This document shows, one piece after another, positions 9,981-58,844 of a stretch of DNA of 64,000 bases. The notes beneath the pieces are model-generated. The model was given only the letters and a program-made list of their open reading frames with translations. It was not told the origin of the DNA and did not search any database. The position numbers were made by a program, and so were the translations under genes. The stretch comes from Sphingopyxis sp. (GTDB taxonomy: Bacteria; Pseudomonadota; Alphaproteobacteria; Sphingomonadales; Sphingomonadaceae): NCBI GenBank assembly GCA_030148985.1, contig JASBSJ010000085.1, forward strand, positions 1 through 64,000, given 5' to 3'. How positions within the stretch are numbered: the first letter of the stretch is position 1; each line of letters begins with the position of its first letter.

Positions 9981-10106
9981 GCCCTCCCCTTCAGGGGAGG
10001 GCAGCGAGACTTGGCAGCTTGCTGCCTAGTCGCAGCGGGTGGGGTCCATCGGCCTTGCGCAAGGCCGATGGACCCCGCCCCAACCCCTCCCCTGAAGGGG
10101 AGGGGC
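9981..10106. repeat. 126-bp nested palindromic element, copy 1
   Basis: The element starts with GCCCTCCCCTTCAGGGGAGG and ends with the same kind of hairpin; in the middle lies a perfect hairpin of GGTCCATCGGCCTTGCGC paired with its complement. A nearly identical element of the same 126-bp length, in opposite orientation, occurs at 58719-58844. It fills the gap between the convergent/divergent ends of the peptidase and CitE-like genes and has no coding capacity. Confidence 0.9.
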
Positions 10107-20527: not shown

Positions 20528-21925
20528 TCAGATGTGGATCGGCTTGCCCGTCACCGCCATTGCGGCTTCCTTGATCGCCTCGCTGTGCGTCGGGTGCGCG
20601 TGGCAGGTATAGGCGATGTCTTCGGACGTCGCGCCGAACTCCATCGCCTGCGCCGCCTGCGCGATCATCGTGCCCGCGACGCTCGCGATGCACCACACGC
20701 CGAGCACGCGGTCGGTCCTGGCGTCGGCGATGATTTTCACGAAACCGTCGGGCTCGTGGTTGGTCTTGGCGCGGCTGTTCGCGAGCATCGGGAATTTGCC
20801 GACCTTGACCTCGCCCTTTTCCTTCGCCTGTTCCTCGGTCAGCCCGACGCCGGCGATTTCGGGCCAGGTATAGACGACCGACGGGATGACATCATGGTTC
20901 ACGATGCCGGTCTGTCCCGCGATATTCTCGGCGCAGGCGATGCCTTCATCCTCGGCCTTGTGCGCGAGCATCGGCCCCGGCACGACATCACCGACCGCCC
21001 AGATGCCATCGACAGCGGTGCGGAAATCATGATCGATCTCGATCTGGCCGCGCTGGTTGACGGTCAGACCCGCCTTGTCGAGCGCAAGGCCGTCGGTGTT
21101 GGGTCGCCGGCCGATCGACACGAGCACGACATCGGCTTCCAGCGTCTCGGCTTCACCGCCCGTGGCGGGCTCGAGCGTCAGCACGGCCTTCTTGCCCTTC
21201 ACTTCGGCCTTCGTCACCTTGGTCTTCAGCTTGAATTCGATGCCCTGCTTCTTGAAGATCTTGTTCGCTTCCTTGCGCACATCGGCATCCATGCCGGGCA
21301 GGATCTGGTCGAGAAACTCGACGCAGGTGACCTTGGCGCCCAGGCGGCGCCACACGCTGCCCAGTTCCAGCCCGATCACGCCGCCGCCGATCACGACCAT
21401 GTGATCCGGAACCTTGGCGAGTTCGAGCGCGCCGGTTGAATCGACAATCACGCCCTTGTCATTGTCGACCTCGACACCCGGCAGCGGGGTCACCGACGAT
21501 CCGGTCGCCACGATGATATTCTTCGCGCGATAGGTCTTGCCCGCGACCTCGACCGTGTCGGCGCTGGTGAATTTCGCATAGCCCTTCAGCCAGTCGACCT
21601 TGTTCTTCTTGAACAGGAATTCGATGCCGCCGGTCAGGCCCTTGACCGCATCCTTGCGCTGGCCGTGCATCGTATCGAGGTCGAGTTCGGGCTTCACCTT
21701 GATGCCCATCTTCGCCATCGACCCGTTCGCCGCCGCATCGAAATATTCGGACGCATGAAGCATCGCCTTCGACGGGATGCAGCCGACGTTAAGGCAGGTG
21801 CCACCCAGCGTCTCGCGCCCCTCGGCGCATGCGGTCTTGAGCCCCAGCTGCGCCGCGCGGATCGCCGCGACATAACCTCCGGGACCGGCACCGATGACAA
21901 GGACGTCATAGTCGTAATCAGCCAT
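20528..21925 (-). CDS. lpdA: Dihydrolipoyl dehydrogenase (E3)
   Basis: E3 re-oxidises the dihydrolipoyl arm of 2-oxoacid dehydrogenase complexes with NAD. The 465-aa product has FAD motif GAGPGGYVA, the redox disulfide Cys44/Cys49 in GGTCLNVGCIPSK, the NAD motif GGGVIGLELGSV and the C-terminal active-site HAHPTHSE. It is the last gene of the mdh-sucD-sucA-sucB-lpd order, so it likely serves the 2-oxoglutarate dehydrogenase complex. It is separated from sucB by a 437-bp insert holding a GIY-YIG gene and palindromes. Confidence 0.97.
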   Translation of the reverse strand: MADYDYDVLVIGAGPGGYVAAIRAAQLGLKTACAEGRETLGGTCLNVGCIPSKAMLHASEYFDAAANGSMAKMGIKVKPELDLDTMHGQRKDAVKGLTGGIEFLFKKNKVDWLKGYAKFTSADTVEVAGKTYRAKNIIVATGSSVTPLPGVEVDNDKGVIVDSTGALELAKVPDHMVVIGGGVIGLELGSVWRRLGAKVTCVEFLDQILPGMDADVRKEANKIFKKQGIEFKLKTKVTKAEVKGKKAVLTLEPATGGEAETLEADVVLVSIGRRPNTDGLALDKAGLTVNQRGQIEIDHDFRTAVDGIWAVGDVVPGPMLAHKAEDEGIACAENIAGQTGIVNHDVIPSVVYTWPEIAGVGLTEEQAKEKGEVKVGKFPMLANSRAKTNHEPDGFVKIIADARTDRVLGVWCIASVAGTMIAQAAQAMEFGATSEDIAYTCHAHPTHSEAIKEAAMAVTGKPIHI

Positions 21926-21941
21926 AACTCACTCCATATGC

Positions 21942-21961
21942 GTTCCTGCGAACGCAGGAAC
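21942..21961. repeat. REP palindrome, left of GIY-YIG gene 1
   Basis: A 20-nt perfect palindrome (GTTCCTGCG-AA-CGCAGGAAC, 9-bp arms) followed by CCAGGG. It lies 8 nt from the stop of GIY-YIG gene 1. With the flanking CCCAGGG it is the inverted counterpart of the unit at 22335-22354. Confidence 0.9.
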
Positions 21962-21969
21962 CCAGGGCG

Positions 21970-22263
21970 TCAAAGTGATAACCCGTCGAACAAATCCAGC
22001 CATTGCGGATTATCGCGTTCGATCAGCTCAATTTTCCACGCCCGCTTCCATTTTTTCATTTGCAGTTCGCGCTGACGCGCTTGCTGAATATCGTCGAACG
22101 CTTCGTACCAGACCAATCGCGTACAGCCATATTTCTTGCTGAAACTCTCGGTCACCTCATTGCGATGCTGCCAGACCCGTTTCAAAAGGTCACCGGTTAC
22201 GCCTAGATACAAGGTGCCATTGCGTGCACTCGCCATCAGGTAGACATATCCGGGCCGGGTCAT
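21970..22263 (-). CDS. Small GIY-YIG endonuclease-domain protein 1
   Basis: This 97-aa protein is a single GIY-YIG domain: the paired strand motif appears as VYL (residues 7-9) and YLG (19-21), with the conserved Arg29, His33 and Glu66 of the active site, and a basic helix MKKWKRAWK. GIY-YIG domains cut DNA in homing endonucleases, UvrC and some restriction enzymes. The ATG at 22263 (MTRPGYVYLM) gives the same length as the second copy in this window; an ATG at 22278 would begin inside the palindrome. The gene is bracketed by REP palindromes (21942-21961, 22277-22296, 22335-22354) within the sucB-lpd gap, which points to a mobile unit. Confidence 0.9.
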   Translation of the reverse strand: MTRPGYVYLMASARNGTLYLGVTGDLLKRVWQHRNEVTESFSKKYGCTRLVWYEAFDDIQQARQRELQMKKWKRAWKIELIERDNPQWLDLFDGLSL

Positions 22264-22276
22264 TTTGCCGTTCCGC

Positions 22277-22296
22277 ATTCCTGCGAACGCAGGAAT
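22277..22296. repeat. REP palindrome, at the 5' end of GIY-YIG gene 1
   Basis: A 20-nt perfect palindrome (ATTCCTGCG-AA-CGCAGGAAT) 13 nt upstream of the GIY-YIG start. Compared with the neighbouring copies the outermost pair changes from G-C to A-T on both sides, preserving the hairpin. Confidence 0.9.
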
Positions 22297-22334
22297 CCAG
22301 AGTCTGATTGCACCGTCATTTCATCCTACCCTGG

Positions 22335-22354
22335 GCTCCTGCGTTCGCAGGAGC
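22335..22354. repeat. REP palindrome, inverted unit between sucB and GIY-YIG gene 1
   Basis: A 20-nt perfect palindrome (GCTCCTGCG-TT-CGCAGGAGC) preceded by CCCTGG. Including flanks it is the reverse complement of the unit at 21942-21961, so the GIY-YIG gene lies between inverted repeats. It ends 8 nt before the sucB stop. Confidence 0.9.
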
Positions 22355-22362
22355 ACGTGTCA

Positions 22363-23586
22363 TTACAAATCGATCAGCAACCGCGTCGGATCCTCGATCG
22401 CTTCCTTGATCGTCTTGAGGAAGGTCACCGCCTCGCGGCCGTCGATCAGGCGGTGGTCATAGCTCAGCGCCAGATACATCATCGGGCGCACGACGATCTC
22501 ACCGTTCACAACGACCGGACGCTCGTCGATGCGGTGGAGGCCCAGCACCGCCGACTGCGGCGGGTTGATGATCGGCGTCGACATCAGCGATCCGAACACG
22601 CCGCCGTTCGAAATGGTGAAGGTGCCGCCCGCCATGTCGTCCATCGTCAGCGTGCCCTCCTTGGCGCGCTTGCCGAAATCGCCGATCGTCTTTTCGATGT
22701 CGGCAAAGCTCAGCGTTTCCGCATTGCGGATCACCGGCACGACGAGCCCGCTCGGGCCGCTCACCGCGACCGAAATGTCCATATAATTGTTATAGACGAT
22801 CTCGTCGCCGTCGATGCGGCCGTTGACCGCCGGGATGTCCTTGAGCGCCAGACACGCGGCCTTGGTGAAGAAGCCCATGAAGCCCAGCCGCACGCCATGC
22901 TTCTTCTCGAACAGATCCTTGTAACGCGCGCGCGCCTCGATCACCGCTGACATGTCGACGTCGTTGAAGGTCGTCAGCATCGCCGCGGTATCCTGCGCCG
23001 CCTTCAGCCGCTTGGCGATCGTCTGGCGCAGGCGGGTCATCTTGACGCGCTCTTCCTGACGAGCGGGCGCGCCGCTCGCAGCGGGAGCCGCAGCAGGGGC
23101 CGGAGCCGACGCAGGCGCCGCTTCGGGCGCGGCATTTGCTGCGGCGAGCACATCTTCCTTGGTCAGACGGCCGTCCTTGCCGCTGCCCTTGATCTTCGTC
23201 GGGTCGAGCCCGTGTTCGAGCACCAGACGGCGCACCGCGGGCGACATGGTCGTGACCGTATCGACGCCCTCGCTCGCGGCGGGCGCGGTCGCGGCGGGGG
23301 TCGGCGCCGCCGCTTCGGCCTTCGCGGGGGCGGGCGACGCGGCCGCACCGCCCGCTTCGATCGTCGCGATCACCGCACCGACATTGACCGTGTCACCCAC
23401 TGCCACGACCTGCTGTCCCATCACCCCGGCGACGGGCGACGGCACTTCGACCGCGACCTTGTCGGTTTCAAGGCTGGCGATCGGTTCGTCGAGCGCGACC
23501 GCTTCACCGGGCTGTTTCAGCCATTCGCCGATCGTCGCTTCGGTGACGCTTTCGCCCAGCGTGGGGACTTTGACTTCGGTGCTCAT
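22363..23586 (-). CDS. sucB: 2-oxoglutarate dehydrogenase E2, dihydrolipoyl succinyltransferase
   Basis: The 407-aa product has an N-terminal lipoyl domain with the lipoylated lysine in ETDKVAVEV (near residue 43), an Ala/Pro-rich linker, a peripheral-subunit-binding domain ([32 protein letters not shown] region) and a C-terminal acyltransferase core ending in [12 protein letters not shown], which holds the catalytic His and Asp. This is the succinyl-transferring core of the 2-oxoglutarate dehydrogenase complex. It starts 20 nt after sucA, with AAGGAA as ribosome binding site. Confidence 0.97.
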
Positions 23587-26446: not shown

Positions 26447-26466
26447 GCCCCTGCGAAGGCAGGGGC
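26447..26466. repeat. REP palindrome, left of GIY-YIG gene 2
   Basis: GCCCCTGC-GAAG-GCAGGGGC, 8-bp arms with a GAAG loop, followed by CCATCTCCTGGGG. The longer unit GTGCCCCTGCGAAGGCAGGG with its flank recurs at 27781 and, reversed, at 26821-26846, 27857-27883 and 44389-44415. Confidence 0.9.
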
Positions 26467-26511: not shown

Positions 26512-26802
26512 TCACCCTTGGATCTCGAACCACAAATCCCGCCAATCGGGATTTGCTTCCTCGATCATCCGCACCTTCCAACTTCGTTTCCATCGCTTGA
26601 TCTGCCATTCGCGCCTGCGCGCTTCTTGCAAATCCTCATGCACTTCGAACCAAACCAATAACGTACAGCCGTGGGACTTCGTAAATCCTTCGATCAACAT
26701 CTCCCGATGCTGATAGACACGCTGCACCAGAATTGCGGTCGATCCGGTATAGATGGCGCCGTTTTTGCGGTTCGCCATGATATAGACTGCGCCGCTCTTC
26801 AT
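26512..26802 (-). CDS. Small GIY-YIG endonuclease-domain protein 2
   Basis: A 96-aa single-domain GIY-YIG protein, roughly half identical by eye to the copy at 21970-22263. The motif strands are VYI (6-8) and YTG (18-20); Arg28, His32 and Glu65 occupy the conserved positions, followed by the basic IKRWKRSWKVR. All catalytic positions are kept, so it is probably active. It lies between inverted REP palindromes at 26447-26466 and 26825-26844 in the gap between sucA and sucD. The paralogue pair therefore shares both gene and palindrome organisation, while each palindrome type differs. Confidence 0.9.
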   Translation of the reverse strand: MKSGAVYIMANRKNGAIYTGSTAILVQRVYQHREMLIEGFTKSHGCTLLVWFEVHEDLQEARRREWQIKRWKRSWKVRMIEEANPDWRDLWFEIQG

Positions 26803-26824: not shown

Positions 26825-26844
26825 GCCCCTGCCTTCGCAGGGGC
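26825..26844. repeat. REP palindrome, right of GIY-YIG gene 2
   Basis: GCCCCTGC-CTTC-GCAGGGGC, the reverse complement of the 26447-26466 palindrome; with flanks, ATGGGCCCCTGCCTTCGCAG. It lies 22 nt upstream of the GIY-YIG start and 26 nt from the sucD stop. Confidence 0.9.
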
Positions 26845-58718: not shown

Positions 58719-58844
58719 GCCCCTCCCCTTCAGGGGAGGGGTTGGGGTGGGGTCCATCGGCCTTGCGCAAGGCCGATGGACCCCACCCGCTGCAACTAGG
58801 CAGCGAGCTGCCAAGTTTCGCTGCCCTCCCCTGAAGGGGAGGGC
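58719..58844. repeat. 126-bp nested palindromic element, copy 2
   Basis: Same length and, in reverse orientation, nearly the same sequence as 9981-10106: outer CCCCTCCCCTTCAGGGGAGG and CTGCCCTCCCCTGAAGGGGA hairpins and the inner perfect GGTCCATCGGCCTTGCGC hairpin. The right end stops 8 nt before the glutamate dehydrogenase stop codon. Confidence 0.92.

Follow-up and report, generated by a model that had tools for sequence, protein, structure and literature searches.

Among the described systems closest to the locus reported here are the CGTC-REPs which, according to the main text of the paper on them, come from five phyla and all alphaproteobacterial orders and are mostly alphaproteobacterial (Di Nocera, 2013; PMC3733652). 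They are characterized there by a CGTC tag, an 8-9-bp stem, a 4-5-nt loop and a CCA tail, and they occur mainly as tags-outward dimers (Di Nocera, 2013). The same main text, which has no word beginning with GIY, presents them as apparently lacking a dedicated transposase and leaves the question open (Di Nocera, 2013). For the REPtrons, which comprise RAYT (TnpA-REP) genes, GTAG-tagged REPs, and REPINs, the available part of one source describes the RAYTs as single-copy (PMC3116915), and in the available text of the 2025 RepRanger paper the words RAYT, transposase, and nuclease never occur (PMC12306157). Among the matches listed in open-access full text outside bioRxiv, there was no report joining GIY-YIG with REPs, in keeping with the original prediction that a GIY-YIG nuclease in such a position is not known to have been described as a REP mobilizer.

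GIY-YIG enzymes are metal-dependent nucleases that are not known to form a covalent intermediate, and in GIY-YIG homing endonucleases and Penelope-type elements such a nuclease serves selfish spread. Here we analyse a small GIY-YIG gene set among palindromes in an alphaproteobacterium. We consider it probable (roughly 0.7) that a clade of GIY-YIG nucleases of ~95-115 aa, to which this gene belongs, constitutes the gene of a REP-type mobile element.

Results

Palindromes and a GIY-YIG gene between sucB and lpd

The window is the whole stretch of DNA analysed, 64,000 nucleotides of a Sphingopyxis sp. contig (JASBSJ010000085.1). In it, a GIY-YIG nuclease gene (21970..22263, minus strand; it encodes 97 aa if read from the ATG at 22263 and 102 aa if read from an alternative ATG at 22278) lies between two host genes, also on the minus strand (22363..23586 and 20528..21925), which we take, as the original prediction does, to be sucB and lpd. 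The protein matches Pfam PF01541 (53 bits) as its sole family, and Y7, Y18, G20, R28, H32, E65, and N84, numbered by the first alignment row without Met, are invariant across 16 aligned relatives; these are presumably the catalytic residues of GIY-YIG nucleases.

Three palindromes accompany the gene. Palindrome 1 (22335..22354; GCTCCTGCG-TT-CGCAGGAGC) forms the outer end on the 5' side of the gene, its CCCAG tail pointing inward, and together with palindrome 2 (22277..22296; ATTCCTGCG-AA-CGCAGGAAT), which lies inverted beyond a 38-bp spacer (22297..22334), it makes up a REPIN-like pair on that side. Palindrome 3 (21942..21961; GTTCCTGCG-AA-CGCAGGAAC) marks the end at the 3' side and is a direct repeat of palindrome 2, the two bracketing the gene. 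The three 9-bp-arm palindromes predicted around an intact 97-aa gene in this gap are all present and perfect, and the predicted pairing between differing arms and matching partners is borne out by outer bases that change in pairs. Each can be read as an 8-bp stem with a 4-nt loop (9+2 if fully paired) and a CCCAG or TCCAG tail, and the tails of palindromes 1 and 2 point inward, as in a tags-outward (HH) dimer. In the window copy one side bears CGTG as its tag and the opposite side lacks a clear one, and TGTG is found in other carriers of the locus.

The exact 16-bp core, TCCTGCGNNCGCAGGA, was counted three times in the own genome, a 73% complete assembly of 2.94 Mb, each time at the window locus, and not once in a reversed control. 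With arms of at least 9 and loops of at most 2, the 64 kb contain 12 rows of palindromes (10 distinct places, two listed twice) whereas 60 dinucleotide shuffles averaged 3.95 rows, and three such palindromes inside 420 bp arose in 1 of the 60. Chance palindromes were rejected on the exact-core count and this last figure; a looser test, in which the core with at most two mismatches was matched three times in the window, a count attained by 9 of 100 shuffles, would not exclude chance by itself. The cluster is thus real and non-random, yet its type is not dispersed in the own genome, since the exact copies are confined to the locus; related types are numerous. The repeats group with CGTC-tagged and not with GTAG-tagged REPs; the window palindromes carry no GTAG tag, and the unit contains no HUH Y1 transposase (PF01797).

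Other GIY-YIG genes and REP pairs in the own genome

A search of the own genome found six small GIY-YIG genes and UvrC. Similar palindromes stand at both ends of five of the six, with starts 340-455 bp apart and a sequence particular to each gene, and no matched pair was found at the sixth (L004) or at UvrC (L007). One of the five lies within the window in the sucD-sucA gap (26512..26802, minus strand), between a palindrome at 26447..26466 (GCCCCTGCGAAGGCAGGGGC; 1373-1392 of L002) and its inverted counterpart at 26825..26844 (GCCCCTGCCTTCGCAGGGGC; 1751-1770 of L002).

Sites of a general REP core, CCNGCGNANGCNGG, number 367 in the own genome versus 49 in the reversed control. Among the first 100 of these sites, 86 form 43 close pairs, 48-82 bp apart, and all 43 are inverted in the tags-outward sense as judged by the core alone. 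PF01797 (Y1/RAYT-type) had no match in this 73% complete genome, on which ground RAYT-driven REPs were rejected for it; matches occurred in 5 of the 36 genus genomes and in 12 of all 60 genomes searched. Dozens of copies of a single palindrome are present in genomes lacking PF01797 (e.g., G012). Another repeat family is represented in the window by two near-identical composite palindromes (9981-10105 and 58720-58844), each a 36-44-bp perfect palindrome between CCCTCCCC..GGGGAGGG hairpins.

Association of gene and palindromes across relatives

The named loci, 80 in number and spread over many phyla, contain 82 related genes, and matched palindromes were found at both ends of 49 of these versus 5 of 352 other genes called within the same loci. 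These are the best 80 of at least 568 confirmed stretches, many of them metagenome-assembled, and they represent the clade but not GIY-YIG proteins at large, because they were found through motifs typical of palindrome-bearing members. The 49 pairs comprise 24 that are clearly tags-outward, 12 and 4 that are tandem in one or the other direction, and 9 that are unclear. In a first sample of relatives, palindromes at least 80% alike and at most 160 bp from both gene ends flanked 42 of 81 GIY-YIG genes versus 0 of 269 random 300-bp spans from the same loci, with one locus (L003 = L078) and one tandem pair (L032 = L046) counted twice; with further loci of the genus and order added, the figure was 63 of 138. 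In a plasmid collection, 10 of 13 loci (13 of the 34 records matched) were flanked under wider limits (200 bp, overlap 35), with no control of their own. Outer sequences are CGTC-like across units and TGTG or CGTG in the window's subfamily, and many homologous units bear CGTC (or TGTC/CCTC) tags.

A tree built from 200 distinct proteins, each 80-170 aa long, separates a side group of 22, none with matched palindromes, from the remaining 178, of which 107 have them by a strict test. The other 71 fail that test, which undercounts, since the MERYPC subfamily described below fails it because its right palindrome overlaps the gene end. The palindrome label changes 38 times on the tree, a number as low as in none of 500 shuffles, whose mean was 66, with near-copies aiding the clustering. 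Most side-group proteins bear the motif YxLxCxD..YYxG, which we take to be UPF0213/YhbQ-like, and the window protein (L003) falls outside this group in a tree that has no named UPF0213 reference. By profile, its nearest solved relatives are 1zg2 and 1ywl, both named UPF0213; the profile also weakly matches UvrC and SLX1, the latter presumably a branched-DNA nuclease. A preponderance of homologs without flanking palindromes, the contrary outcome named in the original prediction, was found neither in the named loci (49 of 82 flanked) nor in the clade (107 of 178, strict).

A gene-blind pattern search of five genomes behind the named loci came upon a REP pair ~400 bp apart (G061, C9) that enclosed a GIY-YIG gene. 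Ten small palindrome-clade genes were read in these genomes, the reading leaving out five large frames (L262, L264, L265, L266, and L268). Seven have matched palindromes, five at already known loci and two among five newly found genes; no matched palindromes were found at L251, L256, or the broken L267, and no matched pair at six genes of another motif.

Protein and palindrome likeness correlate weakly across the 49 named loci (r 0.195; 20 of 5000 permutations) and not significantly once close pairs are removed (516 of 5000). Within the genus, the correlation is r 0.37 (0 of 2000 permutations; 40 rows, identical ones removed), a result weakened by those loci being mostly syntenic. Most palindrome types in the genus occupy one syntenic place each, and the GIY-YIG genes there are therefore mostly inherited, not hopping. 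The palindrome type CCCCGGCGAAAGCCGGGG is abundant also where no gene of the same type is among those listed (e.g., G012 and G016), and genus-wide co-occurrence of palindrome type and gene type failed for the one type tested.

Unit ends and short derivatives in the MERYPC subfamily

For the MERYPC subfamily, eight copies were compared, which lie at different loci in five genomes: G014, G024, and G026 have two copies apiece, G035 and G004 a single one. The copies align from CGTCACCCC (CGTCACCCCGGGCTTGACCCGGGG) to TGACG (GGGATGACG; GGGGTGACG in one copy) and hardly beyond, and outside these limits there are only a few recurring edge bases and ~17 bases common upstream of both G024 copies. Both ends are seen in six of the eight, as both G026 copies are cut by contig ends. 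Comparison of flanks sorted the eight into seven groups, with L122 and L139 together in one large chained group. The unit measures 395 bp in L115. With their inverted termini and sharp ends in unrelated flanks, these units, which do not include the window copy, are built like an insertion sequence or a MITE.

When one MERYPC locus was compared with nine relatives, many adjacent matches were to the two unit ends only. All 18 short pairs chosen for inspection consist of the two ends without the gene, 74-90 bp in total, to which one end contributes 21-41 bp and the other 22-45 bp, the first bases being missing from one pair; having been chosen because both ends lay together, they speak to structure and not to frequency. 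The printed flanks differ for most of them, but the 15-bp flanks printed for L311 and L315 (both in G006) are identical, and several G019 copies resemble one another in their 5' flanks, so not all are independent insertions. In Sinorhizobium meliloti Ak57, a copy without most of the gene stands directly beside a full copy, and together with the 18 short pairs it gives the palindrome pairs the look of internal-deletion derivatives, related to the units as miniature elements are to insertion sequences. No target-site duplication was apparent by eye in the 8 full and 18 short copies, and no base-exact empty site came to light. Several short pairs among L310-L327 have weak flank motifs in common (GGAC..CTCTT before, AAGAGGGACGTCC after), perhaps a target preference or a longer terminus.

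Presence and absence in intergenic gaps

For sucB-lpd, 30 regions were fetched and 29 gaps were readable. Intact genes of the window type occupy three of the 29, the window included (a fourth was found later in G011, L153), a broken one lies in G019, and the gap of G004 (L093) holds a pair of the window type without the gene, sharing the lpd-side flank. The rest hold five pairs of other types and a looser pair in G022 (L085), and 18 are without any. The predicted variation in occupancy among relatives is thus present, whereas no base-exact empty site was found among the 29 gaps, the flanking DNA being too different for the junction to be read to the base. Recombination of palindrome 2 with palindrome 3 could produce a gene-less form like that of G004. 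The window-type copy is syntenic among its carriers, and the window's own example, whose nuclease gene is intact and accompanied by three palindromes, is a stationary one; the predicted mobile unit in this gap therefore draws its support from MERYPC units at different loci and not from any movement seen in the window copy.

The sucD-sucA gap measures 83-97 bp in 17 of 20 regions, two others hold units, and L284 was not cleanly parsed. The empty gaps contain another hairpin and differ in sequence from the occupied gap's outer flanks; no base-exact empty site emerged among them. In one occupied gap (L288, in G002), the unit is a different GIY-YIG unit with CCCCCGC palindromes, and its right edge bears a decayed palindrome resembling that of the window's second unit, as if one unit had replaced another. 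At the sites of L115 and L317, relatives have variable intergenic DNA, again with no base-exact empty site. The short pair L317 (G028) occupies the position of other DNA in the relatives L330, L331, L333, and L336, and insertion may thus bring loss of neighboring DNA.

In Azospirillum lipoferum, a unit lies between sufB and sufC, and it is absent from that place in all four relatives read (A. ramasamyi, A. oryzae, strain B510, and A. thermophilum). In strain 4B (L345), the gene lies between two complete inverted pairs within this sufB-sufC gap, again an operon gap. In Sphingobium plasmids, one and the same gap contains the full unit in TomTYG46, a single hairpin in TomTYG74, and neither of these in TomTYG72; the single CGTCA..TGACG hairpin of TomTYG74 (L361), situated where the sister plasmid has the full unit, is possibly a deletion scar.

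Among taxa named for CGTC-REPs, GIY-YIG genes lie between such repeats in A. lipoferum, Novosphingobium aromaticivorans, and S. meliloti. Neisseria gonorrhoeae also carries a GIY-YIG gene between repeats of the CGTC-REP type; the main text of the CGTC-REP paper names the genus only and describes its repeats as clustered, which makes this the least telling case (Di Nocera, 2013). The record concerned (L344, NZ_CP119140.1), 2.17 Mb long, is filed as a plasmid, and its gene is flanked on either side by ATTCCC..GGGAAT repeats that resemble dRS3 as given in that main text (Di Nocera, 2013).

Discussion

Related loci in many bacteria point to gene and palindromes as parts of a single mobile unit. 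In our best reading, the GIY-YIG nuclease would play a RAYT-like role for CGTC-REPs, and the window enzyme becomes a candidate for the mobilizer so far missing from a widespread bacterial repeat class. The original prediction had placed the nuclease where a RAYT would stand, and the MERYPC units at different loci, with their short derivatives, support this placement at the level of sequence.

That the hairpins are ordinary operon terminators or processing signals, with the gene beside them by accident, is very improbable. GC-rich hairpins in an operon gap are what such signals would look like, and even the empty sucD-sucA gaps contain another hairpin; against this stand the recurring tags and tails, the gene-less pairs at the same and other sites, and the frequency of matched palindromes at related genes (49 of 82) versus neighboring ones (5 of 352), the control on which simple terminators were rejected. 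The gene might instead be a passenger, with another enzyme moving inverted REPs that enclose it in some copies. Such an enzyme would account for REPs of one type that abound in genomes with no matching gene among those listed, and for the 71 of 178 clade genes without matched palindromes in the strict test. We nevertheless regard a passenger as unlikely, given the association across the clade and many phyla, the boundaries that REP ends and gene have in common in MERYPC, the invariance of the presumed catalytic residues in 16 diverse members, and PF01797 transposases that have no match in the own genome (73% complete) and are few in its relatives.

Perhaps, on the other hand, the nuclease serves the host or behaves like a homing enzyme, cutting or resolving REP hairpins, with its gene fixed beside the target and spreading by gene conversion between REP sites and not by transposition. 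The fixed syntenic loci of the genus fit this, as do the weak profile matches to UvrC and SLX1, and yet full units with sharp ends occur at different loci, short pairs lie in mostly different flanks, and gene and REPs are together absent from the same gap in four of four Azospirillum relatives, all of which makes this quite unlikely in our view. We therefore return to the nuclease as the gene of a mobile element.

How might such an element move? A full unit, ~395 bp in MERYPC as the best-resolved subfamily, consists of an outward CGTC-like tag, a hairpin, a CCA tail, the gene, and then an inverted tail, hairpin, and tag. We infer that the nuclease would recognize the hairpin ends when extruded and nick at or near the tags, and that nicking would free or template the unit, with host replication or end-joining completing the move elsewhere. 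Internal deletion would reduce the unit to its ends, a pair of 74-90 bp that corresponds to a REPIN, or miniature inverted-repeat element, and can become numerous, and the nuclease may act both on its own unit and in trans on the short pairs.

It is tempting to go further, and with less assurance we lean toward a new class of autonomous bacterial element, present in several phyla, with a GIY-YIG nuclease of ~100 aa as its only protein, hairpin ends, and abundant miniature derivatives. It would provide the long-missing mobilizer of CGTC-REPs, including the dRS3-type repeats of Neisseria, and an independent counterpart of the RAYT/REPIN system. If this is true, it represents a route of transposition without a DDE, HUH, serine, or tyrosine transposase. 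An enzyme family found inside the repeat dimers also makes the question of a CGTC-REP transposase directly testable.

Small GIY-YIG proteins of the UPF0213/YhbQ-like kind belong to the same domain family as the window protein, and those assigned by motif form the 22-protein side group without palindromes in our tree, which includes no named UPF0213 protein. GIY-YIG homing endonucleases and Penelope-type elements are alike in using such a nuclease for selfish spread, but no intron, intein, or reverse transcriptase was seen in the units described here, which have palindromic ends and miniature derivatives instead. The window unit shares with CGTC-REPs, as the main text of their paper presents them, the stem, short loop, CCA-type tail, and tags-outward dimer; many homologous units also have the tag, abundance in alphaproteobacteria is common to both systems, and what sets the present one apart from that description is a GIY-YIG gene inside the dimer (Di Nocera, 2013). 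As in REPtrons, a small gene stands between tagged palindromes in inverted orientation, loci are mostly vertical and single-copy, and gene-less palindrome pairs are dispersed; in contrast, the enzyme is a GIY-YIG protein and not an HUH tyrosine transposase, the tag is CGTC-like and not GTAG, and MERYPC is multi-locus, with two copies in each of three genomes, whereas RAYTs are single-copy in the available part of the source (PMC3116915). If the nuclease does mobilize CGTC-REPs, then a very small nuclease suffices for spread, and REP/REPIN systems arose twice, with unrelated enzymes.
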